The notes below the pieces were generated by a model. The model had not been told where the DNA came from. It worked only from the letters and a program-made list of their open reading frames with translations, and ran no database searches. Both the position numbers and the translations under genes were made by a program. This document shows positions 117-4,689 of a DNA stretch of 48,050 nucleotides, in pieces; the first letter of the stretch is position 1, and every line of letters begins with the position of its first letter. The DNA comes from Chitinophagales bacterium. Lineage in GTDB: Bacteria; Bacteroidota; Bacteroidia; Chitinophagales; CAIOSU01. The stretch lies in NCBI GenBank assembly GCA_040877935.1, contig JBBDNB010000060.1, forward strand, positions 1 to 48,050, in the 5' to 3' direction.

Positions 117-482
117 ATGAGTGAAAATGATTTGAAATGGGAAAAACTCCATTTGCCGGAACTGATGTCGCCCGCAGAAATAGAAAACGGACAACTGGTT
201 CAGGCAGAATGTGAAAGTAAGAAATATTGCCTGAGCAAGGTCAATGACAATTGGTATGCCATTCGCGATACCTGTCCACATGCAAGTGCCTCTCTCAGCA
301 AGGGTTTTATGGTAAAAGGTCAGGTAGTGGTTTGTCCTTTGCACCGCGCTAAATTTGATATTTGCAGCGGTAAAAATATCAGTGGCGAAGGTTATGGCAT
401 GCGTTCATATCCTGTGAAGCAGGAAGACGATCAGCTTTACCTTGGCCTCACTGATAAAAATTGGTACGAATTCTGGAAATGA
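117..482 (+). CDS. Rieske-type [2Fe-2S] ferredoxin
   Basis: A 121-residue soluble protein with the Rieske cluster-binding pair C-P-H (Cys53, His55) and C-P-L-H (Cys73, His76). The two Cys and two His would hold a [2Fe-2S] cluster. The size and lack of a signal peptide or membrane segment fit the small cytoplasmic Rieske ferredoxins of the NirD/dioxygenase-ferredoxin type, which pass electrons to a partner enzyme. No oxygenase or reductase partner is in the window, so the partner is unknown. Its stop overlaps the start of murF-alr as ATGA (479-482), so the two are probably cotranscribed and translationally coupled, although no functional link between them is obvious. The family call is firm; the role is not known. 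Confidence 0.88.
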   Translation: MSENDLKWEKLHLPELMSPAEIENGQLVQAECESKKYCLSKVNDNWYAIRDTCPHASASLSKGFMVKGQVVVCPLHRAKFDICSGKNISGEGYGMRSYPVKQEDDQLYLGLTDKNWYEFWK

Positions 483-2998
483 GTCAAAAGAACTATACCC
501 TTCAGGAAATTGCCCGTACTGTTGAAGCAACTTTCTTATGCTGCGCTGATGAGAATGAAAGCATTTCCCATATTTTGTTGGACAGTAGGCAGGTGCATAC
601 AGGCAGTGGGACTTTGTTTTTTGCCATTGAAGGAATTCAGCATGACGGCCACGATTTTATTCCCACATTGATTGAAAGTGGCATTCGCAATTTCGTGGTT
701 TCTAAAAATCTGAAAATCAATAAAAATCTTGGCTCAGTACTCAATGTCCTAAAGGTAGATGATAGTATAAAAGCTCTCCAAAAACTTGCTGCTTTTCATC
801 GCAGTCAATTTACATTTCCGCTAATCGGCATTACGGGCTCCAATGGAAAAACCATTGTGAAAGAGTGGCTTTTTCAATTGCTCGACAAGCGCTATAATAT
901 TGTCAGAAGTCCGAAAAGCTACAATTCGCAAATAGGGGTTCCGCTATCTGTATGGCAAATAAAAGCCGAACACAGCCTGGGGATTATTGAAGCAGGTATT
1001 TCAAAGCCCGGGGAAATGGAGCGGCTCGAAAAAGTGATTCGTCCCGATATCGGGATATTGACCAATATTGGCTATGCCCATGCCGAAGGGTTTCAAAATT
1101 CTAAACAAAAACTTAGGGAAAAACTCCACTTGTTTGCAAATTCAGAAGTTTTGATTTGTCCTGCTGATGATCCCTTGATTCAGGATGTTGTTGAGGAATT
1201 CAAACAGGAACGGAAAAAGTCCTTGAAAAAACCACTGTTAATTTTCAACTGGGGAAAATCCGCAAAGGCAAGCGTTAAAATTGAGCAGATAAAAACAGAA
1301 AATACCCGAACAGCAATTGCACTGAAACACAATGGGAATAACTATCAATTCAATATTCCCTTTAGCGATAAAGCATCTATAGAAAATGCCATTAGCTGTG
1401 CTACTTGTGGCATTTATTTGCAAGCAGCAGATGAGGTTTTTCTCAAATCATTTGAACAATTGAGCACTGTGGCCATGCGCCTGGAGCTAAAAGATGCGGT
1501 GAACCAATGTTCGTTGATCAATGACAGTTACAACTCTGATTTGGGCTCATTAAAAATCGCCCTGGATTTTTTAAAACAACAACAGCAACACAGCAAAAGA
1601 ACACTCATTCTTTCAGATATTTTGCAAAGTGGGATGTCTGACAAAACACTGCTCAATGAAGTAGTGCGTTTGGTGAAAGACAGCGATTTGCAAAAGTTTA
1701 TAGGAATTGGCCCGGTGCTTTATAAAAACCGCGATTTGTTTAAAGAGTTAAAAGCAGCGCAGTTTTTTTACAAAGACACTGAAGCTTTTTTAAATGCCAT
1801 TCAGCAGCTCAGTTTTTACGATGAAAGTATTTTGTTGAAAGGGGCGCGCAATTTTCATTTTGAAAAGATCAGCCGTCTGCTGGAACGGAAATTTCACGAA
1901 ACTGTATTTGAGATCAACCTGAATGCGGTGAGCCATAACCTGGCGGCCGTACGCAATCACCTGGGCGATAAAACTAAAATCATGGCTATGGTGAAAGCAT
2001 TTTCCTATGGCAGCGGTGCTTTCGAAATTGCCAGTATGCTGCAATTCCAGCATGTGGATTATTTGTCGGTAGCTTTTGTAGATGAAGGTATTGCACTGCG
2101 AAATGCGGGAATAACACTACCTGTGATGGTAATGAATCCTGAAGAAAACAGTTTTGAAAGTTTATTGCACTATAAGCTGGAACCCGAGATTTATAGCTTC
2201 AGGCTTTTAAGAAAGTTTTCTGCATTACTGGATGAAAAACTGCCTGCACAAAAACTGCCCATTCATATAAAGATAGACACCGGGATGCACCGGCTTGGAT
2301 TTTTGCCGCATGAAATCGATGTGCTTGCCCGGGAAATTAAAAATCAAAAAAGCTGGAAGGTGGCCAGTGTTTTTTCACATCTCAGCTCCAGTGAAGATCC
2401 AAAAGACGATGCCTTTACTGAACAGCAAATAGAAAAATTCAAAAATGCTGCTGGTCAATTAGAATCCCTTTTGGGGTATTCCACACTGAAACATTTGCTC
2501 AATTCTGCCGGAACTCTGCGTTTTCCCCAGGGGAAATTTGATATGGTTAGAGTGGGTTTGGTGCTTTATGGGATTGATATTACAGGAGTTTTGGCCAATC
2601 AACTGGAACCGGTGGGGCAACTCAAAACAAGTATTTCGCAGATAAAAACACTGGAAAAAGGGGCGAGCATTGGGTACAACAGAAAAGCCAGGGCGGATAA
2701 AAAACTCCGCGTAGCCACTATTGCAATTGGCTATGCCGATGGTTACAGGCGCGCTTTTGGAAACAAAAAAGCCTATGTGCTTGTCAGGGATAAAAAGGCA
2801 GCAGTAATCGGAAATGTGTGCATGGATATGTGTATGATAGACGTGACAAATATACCGGAAGCAAGTGAAGGCGATGAGGTCTTGCTTTTTGGTAAGTCAC
2901 TTCCGGTAGAACATCTGGCCAAATGGGCAGAAACTATACCCTATGAAATTTTAACGGGTATTGGCGAAAGGGTAAAAAGGGTTTATTTTAAGGAGTAG
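479..2998 (+). CDS. murF-alr: Bifunctional UDP-MurNAc-tripeptide:D-Ala-D-Ala ligase / alanine racemase
   Basis: A fusion of two cytoplasmic peptidoglycan enzymes (839 residues). The N-terminal ~450 residues are a Mur ligase: the ATP-binding loop GITGSNGKT lies at residues 117-125, followed by the Mur central and C-terminal domains; this part adds D-Ala-D-Ala to UDP-MurNAc-tripeptide. The C-terminal ~370 residues are a PLP-dependent alanine racemase: the PLP lysine is Lys506 in MAMVKAFSYG, the catalytic tyrosine is probably in IGYNRKA, and the conserved CMDMCMIDVT block follows. One chain thus makes D-Ala and consumes its dimer. Such fusions are common in Bacteroidota. I chose the ATG at 479 over an in-frame start at 461 because it forms the ATGA overlap with the upstream gene. 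The residue after the P-loop Thr is Ile rather than the more usual Thr. Confidence 0.95.
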   Translation: MSQKNYTLQEIARTVEATFLCCADENESISHILLDSRQVHTGSGTLFFAIEGIQHDGHDFIPTLIESGIRNFVVSKNLKINKNLGSVLNVLKVDDSIKALQKLAAFHRSQFTFPLIGITGSNGKTIVKEWLFQLLDKRYNIVRSPKSYNSQIGVPLSVWQIKAEHSLGIIEAGISKPGEMERLEKVIRPDIGILTNIGYAHAEGFQNSKQKLREKLHLFANSEVLICPADDPLIQDVVEEFKQERKKSLKKPLLIFNWGKSAKASVKIEQIKTENTRTAIALKHNGNNYQFNIPFSDKASIENAISCATCGIYLQAADEVFLKSFEQLSTVAMRLELKDAVNQCSLINDSYNSDLGSLKIALDFLKQQQQHSKRTLILSDILQSGMSDKTLLNEVVRLVKDSDLQKFIGIGPVLYKNRDLFKELKAAQFFYKDTEAFLNAIQQLSFYDESILLKGARNFHFEKISRLLERKFHETVFEINLNAVSHNLAAVRNHLGDKTKIMAMVKAFSYGSGAFEIASMLQFQHVDYLSVAFVDEGIALRNAGITLPVMVMNPEENSFESLLHYKLEPEIYSFRLLRKFSALLDEKLPAQKLPIHIKIDTGMHRLGFLPHEIDVLAREIKNQKSWKVASVFSHLSSSEDPKDDAFTEQQIEKFKNAAGQLESLLGYSTLKHLLNSAGTLRFPQGKFDMVRVGLVLYGIDITGVLANQLEPVGQLKTSISQIKTLEKGASIGYNRKARADKKLRVATIAIGYADGYRRAFGNKKAYVLVRDKKAAVIGNVCMDMCMIDVTNIPEASEGDEVLLFGKSLPVEHLAKWAETIPYEILTGIGERVKRVYFKE

Positions 2999-3047: not shown

Positions 3048-3449
3048 CTATTTAGCCATTATCATTCCCTTCAATGACCAAAGAATTGCCAATACCTCAT
3101 TCCTGGAATTTTCATCAATATTGTGCTTTTCCAAAACCGACATTATATCATCAATGGCAGCCATATACTCTTCAGCATTGATGTTCATGCCCCTGTGCGC
3201 ATCTGGCATCTCCTTTCCGTGGTATTCAACCTGGGCACCGCTTCCTGCGCTGAAAAATTGAACCAGGTGTTCTTTGATCTTTTTTAGGTTTTCAGGATCT
3301 TCTTTGTAGGGCAGAAACCGCACTTTTATCACTGGGTTGTTCATGTGCGCTTCTACTGCATCTTTTACAATTTCGGAAACTCCACTATGACCTCCAAGGC
3401 GCTCAAAAAGTGTTGTTTTTTCTTTGATTGTTTCTTGTGCATTTGTCAT
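3048..3449 (-). CDS. Truncated haemoglobin (group 1-like)
   Basis: A 133-residue globin of the truncated 2/2 type. It starts near LFERLGG, as in group 1 truncated haemoglobins, and has the FF pair (65-66) and the F-helix motif DAHRGMNI with the likely proximal haem ligand His85. Members of this family bind O2, NO or CO and are linked to NO detoxification or redox signalling; the particular role here is unknown. A short N-terminal extension (about 12 residues) precedes the globin fold. It lies 121 bases downstream of, and on the same strand as, the DUF4242/AraC regulator gene. Its upstream region carries a TAnnTTTG element and two direct repeats, which suggests it has its own regulated promoter rather than relying on read-through. 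Confidence 0.88.
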   Translation of the reverse strand: MTNAQETIKEKTTLFERLGGHSGVSEIVKDAVEAHMNNPVIKVRFLPYKEDPENLKKIKEHLVQFFSAGSGAQVEYHGKEMPDAHRGMNINAEEYMAAIDDIMSVLEKHNIDENSRNEVLAILWSLKGMIMAK

Positions 3450-3502
3450 AACATGGTTTTTAATTAGTGAATAAATAAGCTTTTAGCCTTTTGCTAATGA
3501 TG

Positions 3503-3510
3503 CAAAAATA
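3503..3510 (-). promoter_or_regulatory. Putative -7 element (TATTTTTG) of the globin gene
   Basis: This matches the Bacteroidota TAnnTTTG consensus perfectly on the minus strand and would leave a leader of about 45-50 bases before the globin ATG. No good -33 TTTG sits at a normal distance, as expected for an activator-dependent promoter. Confidence 0.5.
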
Positions 3511-3532
3511 TAGCTCATCAAATAGAGATTTT

Positions 3533-3567
3533 AGCATATTTGGTTCTAAGAAAAGCACATTTGGTTC
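3533..3567. promoter_or_regulatory. Two 14-bp direct repeats with 21-bp period, probable AraC-type operator
   Basis: AGCATATTTGGTTC at 3533-3546 and AGCACATTTGGTTC at 3554-3567 differ at one base and are exactly 21 bases apart, two helical turns. Two direct half-sites with this period are typical of AraC/XylS-family binding sites. They lie just upstream of the globin -7 element, over the -33 region, and end three bases from the stop codon of the upstream AraC-family gene. The repeat itself is seen; its use as an operator is inferred. Confidence 0.6.
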
Positions 3568-3570
3568 AAA

Positions 3571-4689
3571 TTATACTGTTGCACTTGTCAGTGCGGATTG
3601 ATAGTGGGAGGGGAGAAGGCCAAATCGTTTCTGAAAACATTTGGAAAAATAAGAAGGACTGTTAAAACCGGTATTATAAGCGATTTCAGAAATAGTATTT
3701 TTCTTTGTGTTTATTGATGTCAAAGCATGGTTTAAGCGATATTCTCTTAAAAATTCATTGGGGGATTTGCCTGTGAGTTCCGTTAATTTCCGATAGGTAT
3801 TTGATTTGCTCATGCCCAGGTTTTTATTAAAATCTTCAACTTTTAAATCCGGGTTTGTCCAATTTTTTTCAATGAAATCCATCAATTCTATGAGCAATGC
3901 CTCTTCAGAGGGATTTAAGACAAGTATTGTTTTGTTGTCAAATGAAGCATTTATGTTTTCCCGCTCATACAGATTTTTGACTTCCGTTGTACTTATAATT
4001 TCTGATTTTTCAATGGTACACAGATAATTTACCAGTTTTATACTGCTTTCAAAAAGTGTTTTTTTCTCTGTTACCGGTGAACCTGTGCACATGCCCAATA
4101 TTAAGCCAATGTCTGAAATATGCTCTCCCCTGGAAAATTCACTGAATAGTGCCTGTGCTTCTTTGGCGAAGTTCACAGCATTGCTTACGGATTTAAATGA
4201 GAGCAGAAAACTTTGTTCACCTTGTTTTACAGTGCCGGCTTCAAAGCGCTTGAACAATTTGGCAACAGCATTTATGTACTTGTTGAAAAAAGATGCCAAT
4301 GCTTTTGGCGTCTGTTTTTCCAATGAAAGTATTCGCAAATTGCCCTGCATTATTGTTCTGAAGGCTGGTTCATTGATGATATTTAATGCGTTGTTTTCAG
4401 AACTTACGGGATCTTCCATTCTTCCCAGAAATGATTCCACTAATTGTGGATCCACTTCAATGATTTCATTGGGCACTTCTCCGTGAGCTCGATTGTGCAT
4501 TTTTTGAATGCTTTCTTTATCAGGTGCTTCAATCAAGCAAAAAGCAGTATTTCTATCTCCATCAAACCAATAAGTCAACCCCCGGCAATTGAATTTGTGC
4601 TGAATTTTCAAATCCTGTTGATGCAATTCGGCAACATTTTCAGCAGTTACAGAAGCTGATACATCGTGGCGGTCCATATATAGTGGCAT
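3571..4689 (-). CDS. DUF4242 / degenerate cyclase-like / AraC-type DNA-binding regulator
   Basis: A 372-residue three-domain protein. Residues ~1-90 resemble the DUF4242 (SCO4226-like, nickel-binding) fold, with TYWFDGDRNTAFCLIEAPD and a HGEVPNEIIEV tail. Residues ~115-265 look like a class III nucleotide cyclase homology domain (QSFLLSFKSVSNAVNFA; then DIGLILGMCTGSPV), but the metal-binding Asp pair is not evident, so it is probably a non-catalytic sensing or dimerisation module. Residues ~270-372 are a clear AraC family double helix-turn-helix ending in FNSPSYFSKCFQKRFGLLPS. It is likely a ligand-responsive transcription factor. The next gene downstream is the truncated haemoglobin, with AraC-like half-sites between them, so regulation of the globin is a reasonable inference. 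The AraC part is certain; the other two domains are moderately sure. Confidence 0.85.
   Translation of the reverse strand: MPLYMDRHDVSASVTAENVAELHQQDLKIQHKFNCRGLTYWFDGDRNTAFCLIEAPDKESIQKMHNRAHGEVPNEIIEVDPQLVESFLGRMEDPVSSENNALNIINEPAFRTIMQGNLRILSLEKQTPKALASFFNKYINAVAKLFKRFEAGTVKQGEQSFLLSFKSVSNAVNFAKEAQALFSEFSRGEHISDIGLILGMCTGSPVTEKKTLFESSIKLVNYLCTIEKSEIISTTEVKNLYERENINASFDNKTILVLNPSEEALLIELMDFIEKNWTNPDLKVEDFNKNLGMSKSNTYRKLTELTGKSPNEFLREYRLNHALTSINTKKNTISEIAYNTGFNSPSYFSKCFQKRFGLLPSHYQSALTSATV

Follow-up and report, generated by a model that had tools for sequence, protein, structure and literature searches.

The window analysed here, 48,050 nucleotides of a Chitinophagales bacterium (GenBank contig JBBDNB010000060.1), contains a gene for a protein that joins three domains in one chain, and the question it raises is which gene this protein controls and in response to what. 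The initial annotation described an SCO4226-like (DUF4242) domain, a degenerate class III cyclase homology domain and an AraC-type DNA-binding domain, and proposed a metal- or nucleotide-gated transcription factor linked to the truncated globin gene next to it. The features of the locus are listed in Table 1.

Table 1. Features of the regulator-globin locus, numbered as in the window
Feature	Position	Strand	Basis and remarks
Three-domain transcription regulator	3571..4689	-	ATG start, 372 aa; 43-member alignment; model pLDDT 92.5
SCO4226-like (DUF4242) domain, residues 4-79	4453..4680	-	PF14026, E 2.8e-20; fold match to 4oi6
Class III cyclase homology domain without catalytic residues, about residues 106-262	3904..4374	-	Fold matches and residue counts
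AraC-type DNA-binding domain (HTH_18), residues 290-364	3598..3822	-	PF12833, E 4.2e-20
Operator half-site 1, TTTGAACCAAA	3560..3570	-	Predicted; directly 3' of the regulator stop codon
Operator half-site 2, TTAGAACCAAA	3539..3549	-	Predicted; 21 bp from half-site 1
-7 box, TATTTTTG (consensus TAnnTTTG)	3503..3510	-	Start lies 39 bp beyond that of half-site 2
Group 1 truncated haemoglobin gene, 133 aa, presumed target	3048..3449	-	PF01152; 7tt9

The three domains were recovered in one chain, by Pfam at both ends and by fold in the middle. PF14026 matched the window regulator with 72.7 bits (cut-off 28.5) over model positions 1-76 of 76, and the description as a transcription factor was borne out by an AraC-type domain well over the cut-offs (HTH_18, 72.3 bits against 33.6; HTH_AraC, 49.2 against 26.6). 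None of the Pfam cyclase models reached the middle of the protein. The whole-chain AlphaFold model, built from a 43-row alignment, has a mean pLDDT of 92.5 and a pTM of 0.89, and residues from about 106 to 273 match class III cyclases (Foldseek, VIA) with Z of about 15-16 and VIA rmsd mostly 2.6-4.4 over about 140-160 residues (for example 5d0h_B, Z 16.0, rmsd 3.5 over 150 residues). Residues 1-96 modelled alone (37-row alignment, pLDDT 91.4) match SCO4226 chain 4oi6_A with Z 14.4 and rmsd 1.4 over 81 residues, while the next chain has Z 8.2. Weak Foldseek matches for this domain include NIPSNAP, NikR and polyketide cyclase OAC folds. The structure prediction and profile search proposed in the initial annotation for the first two regions hence gave the two folds it had named.

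The window regulator can be aligned over its full length with 42 further three-domain proteins (alignment A1, 43 rows), so the arrangement is not a chance one. At E values up to 0.1, PF14026 matches 43/43 aligned members and the cyclase model PF00211 matches 4/43, the best with E 7.3e-07 (L025). The named homologues are nearly all from Bacteroidota. L040, which is close to L002, is outside alignment A1. One contig, present in two bins as L041 and L042, has a shortened regulator of 187 aa; both entries count towards the 44 loci used for neighbouring genes and are absent from the alignment and operator counts. This contig was binned as Phycisphaerae and as KSB1, with a regulator 47 % identical to that of the window, and both assignments may be contamination.

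The fold of the N-terminal domain is shared with SCO4226 of Streptomyces coelicolor (4oi3/4oi6), which differs in being a stand-alone protein of 82 aa. SCO4226 is reported to bind four Ni per dimer with low affinity (Kd 10 uM) and to be induced by Ni, with D43, S46 and H76 as ligands of Ni-1, H23 and the C-terminus of Ni-2, H3, E38 and H12 of Ni-3, and H20 and E74 of Ni-4 (PMC4186839). Common numbering was taken from a phmmer alignment with 4oi3, in which the window regulator has one extra residue after 68. At the Ni-1 positions the window regulator has D43, R46 and I77, and the site is thus mostly lost. Over A1, D43 is present in 39/43, whereas R stands in place of S46 in 37/43 and I in place of H76 in 38/43. 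The H20 position is A in 39/43 and never H, the E38 position is L in 36/43 and never E, the H3 and H12 positions are not H in any of the 43 proteins, and the E74 position is E in 5/43. H23 is kept in 42/43 and, with D43, makes up the nickel ligands that largely persist in the family. The NCBIfam model of the SCO4226 nickel-binding equivalog, NF033706, scored 51.5 bits, below its cut-off of 125.

These counts lower the reading of the protein as a nickel sensor, in which the N-terminal domain would bind Ni(II) like SCO4226 and gate DNA binding. Such a regulator would agree with the clear fold and Pfam match and with a relative that itself binds Ni and is Ni-induced (PMC4186839), and the invariant D6, H8, D26, C51 and H65 with the near-invariant H23 and H69 could form another metal site. 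However, two of the three Ni-1 protein ligands are replaced, most of the other positions have lost the original residue, and no nickel transporter is found among the recurring neighbour clusters identified through Pfam (all but one cluster of three loci). We consider nickel responsiveness improbable, and gating by nickel was not upheld.

What is conserved instead is a different set of residues. D6, H8, D26, W41, C51 and H65 are invariant (43/43) and, like H23, common to SCO4226 in the 4oi3 alignment. As the dimer core of SCO4226 is made up of M5, W41, Y50 and L52 (PMC4186839), strand alternation implies that D6, H8 and C51 should face the helices. The set D6/H8/H23/D26/C51/H65 is likely to be the functional site of the SCO4226-like domain in the regulator family. 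It is not universal among related proteins, because a two-domain protein from Azospirillum (L127) has S, Y and R at positions 6, 8 and 23, and the D-x-H motif is absent from the separate SCO4226-like protein of L032.

The second domain keeps the cyclase fold and not the catalytic residues, in agreement with its description as degenerate. The roles of the positions are those known for class III cyclases, and their placement depends on the alignment. In the window regulator these positions are occupied by N117, K155, Q159, T211, K218 and Y222, with N117 and Q159 standing at the two metal-binding aspartate positions. Among the AraC-fused proteins, the window regulator included, the first metal aspartate is present in 3/43, the second in 9/43, and both in only 2/43 (L039 and the second copy of L034). 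The lysine at the purine-selecting position is kept in 23/43, the window regulator among them, and the arginine position in 28/43. The position aligned with the purine-contacting aspartate is D in 2/43, and the transition-state asparagine position is N in 1/43.

Relatives that apparently retain the enzyme were found on plasmids of alphaproteobacteria, which encode an SCO4226-like domain joined to a cyclase domain, with no DNA-binding domain. Searching plasmids with residues 1-263 gave 24 records, of which 15 cover at least 80 % of the query and the others mostly the first domain. All five of the 15 that were translated (L125, L126, L127, L128 and L131) retain the FTDI and GDG motifs. The adenylyl cyclase Ma1120, of solved structure, is matched by L125 with E 5.7e-26, and the two aspartates, the VKxxGDG lysine and the DLFG aspartate line up in that alignment. 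In the two-domain proteins of Rhizobiaceae and Azospirillum (WP_057206949.1, for example), the stretch from residue 1 to about 260 aligns over its whole length with the regulators (alignment A2) and there is a similar linker around FLGRIxDP; the differences are the absence of the DNA-binding domain and the retention of the catalytic motifs. Where a gene is listed, these proteins are annotated only as 'nickel-binding protein'. The five rhizobial and Azospirillum proteins may be unrecognised adenylyl cyclases, their cyclase domain being apparently intact, and the simplest history would be that catalysis was lost in, or before, the AraC-fused line.

That the regulator is an active cyclase which also binds DNA would be in keeping with the motifs of these relatives, including the match to Ma1120, and with the two AraC-fused proteins that have both aspartates. 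For the window regulator it was rejected, given the residues at the two metal positions and T211, K218 and Y222 at other catalytic positions, and the prospect of such an enzyme is very slight. The domain could instead bind ATP, GTP or a cyclic nucleotide and control DNA binding in this way, a role similar to one proposed for the mycobacterial cyclase-LuxR proteins Mclx2 and Mclx3 (PMC4452763). The retained fold and the frequent purine-selecting lysine, found also in the window regulator, are consistent with nucleotide sensing, but the rarity of the metal aspartates, of the purine-contacting D and of the transition-state N makes it unlikely.

Neighbouring genes were compared in a scan of one genome per species, which yielded 79 loci: 44 regulator loci with the N-terminal domain detected by profile, 34 AraC-only loci used as controls, and L063, in which the regulator frame is broken and which is in neither set. 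Neighbour clusters were identified through Pfam searches of ten representatives. They comprise FAD_binding_4 + BBE oxidases, globins, SnoaL-like, TonB_C/TPR, SCO4226-like and NnrU-like proteins, and a cupin cluster whose Pfam score is below its cut-off. By profiles built from the same 44 named loci, which had been chosen by similarity to the window regulator, the FAD oxidase was found in 28, the globin in 14, the cupin in seven, and the SnoaL-like and TonB proteins in four each. An FAD oxidase and/or a group 1 truncated globin is present in 35/44 named loci versus 0/34 controls, and none of the profiled families was found in the 34 control loci. All 29 FAD oxidase ORFs and all 14 globins are on the strand of the regulator, downstream of it and at most 4.8 kb away.

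The product of the window globin gene matches PF01152 with E 2.9e-06 (27.9 bits, cut-off 21) and, among solved structures, 7tt9 best (E 3.5e-26). H85, which we take to be the proximal ligand, is invariant in 15/15 aligned globins. The window genome has two truncated-globin loci, and a close FAD oxidase was not found in it, the only match being a 128-residue stretch (E 6.6e-6) within a 983-aa frame. Beyond the globin gene, an 845-aa ORF at 461-2998 (+) may encode a MurF-alanine racemase fusion.

The window's phylum was also sampled evenly, with 395 genomes and up to five scored candidates per genome. The regulator is present in at least 18 of them, in at least 16 of 171 genera. Among the 17 loci other than that of the window genome, seven have the FAD oxidase, seven a SnoaL-like gene, none the globin, and ten neither oxidase nor globin; one of the 17, L113, ends at the regulator, and another, L111, is the same DNA as L032 (a Cyclobacteriaceae MAG). 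The association with the globin gene pointed out initially is real, as seen from its position and orientation at 14/44 named loci and from the operator-promoter geometry that globin loci have in common (see below). The count of globin genes beside the fusion which the initial annotation called for is positive in the named loci and zero (0/17) in the even sample. The globin is accordingly not a universal partner, the FAD oxidase being commoner (28/44), and the coupling to it is a feature of some lineages, that of the window included.

In a few loci a separate SCO4226-like protein is the product of the first gene downstream of the regulator. These are L010 (7222-7884, two tandem copies) and L032 (7193-7588), and the same first-gene cluster is found in L030 and L045. 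In L010 and L032 the protein begins with what resembles a signal peptide. A DUF4242 protein may be the target of a DUF4242 regulator.

A common sequence feature precedes these unlike genes. In general layout, a 21-bp direct repeat of TTTGAAYYAAA lies between the regulator and the first gene, and TAnnTTTG follows, with 39 bp from the start of the second half-site to that of the box. In the window, the minus strand from the regulator to the globin gene (3450-3570) contains TTTGAACCAAATGTGC and TTAGAACCAAATATGC 21 bp apart and then TATTTTTG, the full geometry spanning 3570-3503. Searches of 63 downstream regions found 35 half-site pairs at a spacing of 21, compared with a mean of 2.0 and a maximum of six in 50 shuffles and with three in upstream regions. 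The next spacings above the shuffles were 43, 22 and 20 (15, 13 and 12 pairs, with a shuffled maximum at any spacing of 11). On the reverse strand there were 21 pairs at spacing 21, as the core of the half-site is partly its own reverse complement; the direction of a half-site is set by the letters after the core.

A pair is present in 33/63 regions, and TAnnTTTG lies exactly 39 bp on in 20 of these and 40 bp on in two. When only the 40 regulators sharing less than 70 % identity were considered, 24 had a pair, 14 the exact 39-bp step and two a 40-bp step, and 16/40 had no pair by this consensus. In 200 shuffles of this set the mean number of pairs was 2.71 (maximum seven) and the full geometry did not occur. 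The exact geometry was likewise absent from the 40 upstream regions (three pairs) and from the regions downstream of the 34 AraC-only genes (two pairs). As the consensus was derived from regions that were later counted, the 39-bp step and a motif-free count serve as checks; in the latter, repeats of 14 bases with at least 11 identical had a period of 21 in 11/40 regions, and any other period from 14 to 60 in at most two. Fifteen sites were picked for TAnnTTT at the 39-bp step; their half-sites are rich in information, each column of the spacer that separates half-site 2 from the box (columns 40-59) has no more than 0.8 bits, and the box is high by selection. The geometry is rarer in the even sample, where the 19 regulators with usable downstream sequence include five with pairs and one with the exact geometry. 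The operator counts exclude L113, whose sequence stops at the regulator, and L124, in which it is shortened.

The geometry was found before the globin gene (the window, L003-L005, L007, L013, L029 and L038), the FAD oxidase gene (L002, L006, L037 and L040), the cupin gene (L009 and L027), the SnoaL-like gene (L021, L022 and L043), the tandem SCO4226-like gene (L010) and the NnrU-like gene (L020), and it therefore follows the regulator and not one gene family. The flavobacterial sigma-A box TAnnTTTG is reported at -12 to -5 (PMC9723704). With the box so placed, the half-sites start at about -72 and -51, and +1 in the window is near 3498. The I1-I2 sites of AraC have this layout, a direct repeat of 21 bp beside a promoter. 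On comparative grounds, namely an exact geometry that goes with the regulator before unlike genes, the regulator is predicted to bind DNA at the 21-bp repeat.

Evidence for a wide regulon was not seen in pattern searches of the window genome or of seven genomes, though a diverged site could be missed. The two-half-site pattern of the window, with up to three mismatches, occurs once in its genome, with no control hits. A looser pattern with up to one mismatch gave 10 hits in seven genomes versus eight for the reversed control, and five of the 10, in 5/7 genomes, are operators beside the regulator.

We therefore regard the protein as probably a one-component, dimeric AraC-type local activator of the gene immediately downstream. 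The AraC domains would bind the two direct-repeat half-sites of the sigma-A promoter of that gene and recruit RNA polymerase; the SCO4226-like domain would sense a small ligand, a metal or a redox state via D6/H8/H23/D26/C51/H65; and the dead cyclase domain would pair the subunits and pass the signal to the DNA-binding domain. Activation appears more plausible than repression. A predicted site close to the promoter could also be that of a repressor of the downstream gene, but the half-sites precede the -7 box by a fixed distance and are near the place of a -33 element. A site near the -33 element is the usual position for an activator, and repressors rarely need a spacing so exact. Repression is accordingly a rather unlikely role for the 21-bp repeat.

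For an activator of this kind, a gas, redox or metal response is a guess. A truncated globin as the neighbouring target points to O2, NO or an oxidant. As the neighbours are an oxidase, a globin and a cupin, a response to O2, NO, an oxidant or a small molecule is, in our judgement, more likely than nickel homeostasis. For these one-component regulators of Bacteroidota as a class, a tentative and somewhat doubtful proposal is that they arose from an ancestral SCO4226-like/cyclase signalling enzyme whose catalysis was lost and which, with an added AraC domain, turned into a direct transcription switch. The real site of the SCO4226-like domain would then be D6/H8/H23/D26/C51/H65 and not the published nickel site, binding a redox-active small molecule or metal in a function common to most of the DUF4242 family.

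Each of the three domains is well known, and mycobacteria have cyclase-LuxR fusions in which catalysis is partly lost (PMC4452763). In Mclx1-3 (Rv0386, Rv1358 and Rv2488c) a class III cyclase homology domain is likewise joined to a DNA-binding domain, and the catalytic residues are missing from Mclx2 and Mclx3; the output is LuxR instead of AraC, and that account names no SCO4226-like domain for them (PMC4452763). Regulators of the AraC/XylS type share the HTH_18 domain and a 21-bp direct-repeat site upstream of the promoter, but differ from the window regulator, in which the N-terminal module is an SCO4226-like domain with a dead cyclase. In AraC, this module is a cupin. The best whole-chain Foldseek hits are the BLUF photoactivated adenylyl cyclases bPAC and OaPAC, which also join a small alpha/beta sensor to a cyclase domain, although the two domains do not superpose together (rmsd about 16). 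BLUF photoactivated cyclases are active enzymes with a flavin sensor and no DNA-binding domain. A literature search, covering few subscription papers, found no description of the three-domain fusion, its operator or its gene partners. A family whose two-domain relatives bear only the label 'nickel-binding protein' would thus gain a concrete, testable role as a local switch with a predicted operator, promoter and target, and would illustrate how a signalling enzyme can end up as a non-catalytic part of a transcription factor. The conserved residue set could reveal what DUF4242 domains bind.

We note two further arrangements. The Nocardioides plasmid pNOCA01 (L130, 4157-7287) has a stand-alone DUF4242 gene divergent from a BTAD regulator gene, followed by genes for TusA- and DsrE-family sulfur proteins. 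The three-domain regulator is present as two tandem copies about 110-145 bp apart at L116-L119, which belong to four of the 18 sampled genomes that have it, with SnoaL-like and FAD oxidase genes nearby. These four loci and L121 have a different repeat, GNAACAWATG, present twice at a 21-bp period in only these five of 64 regions.
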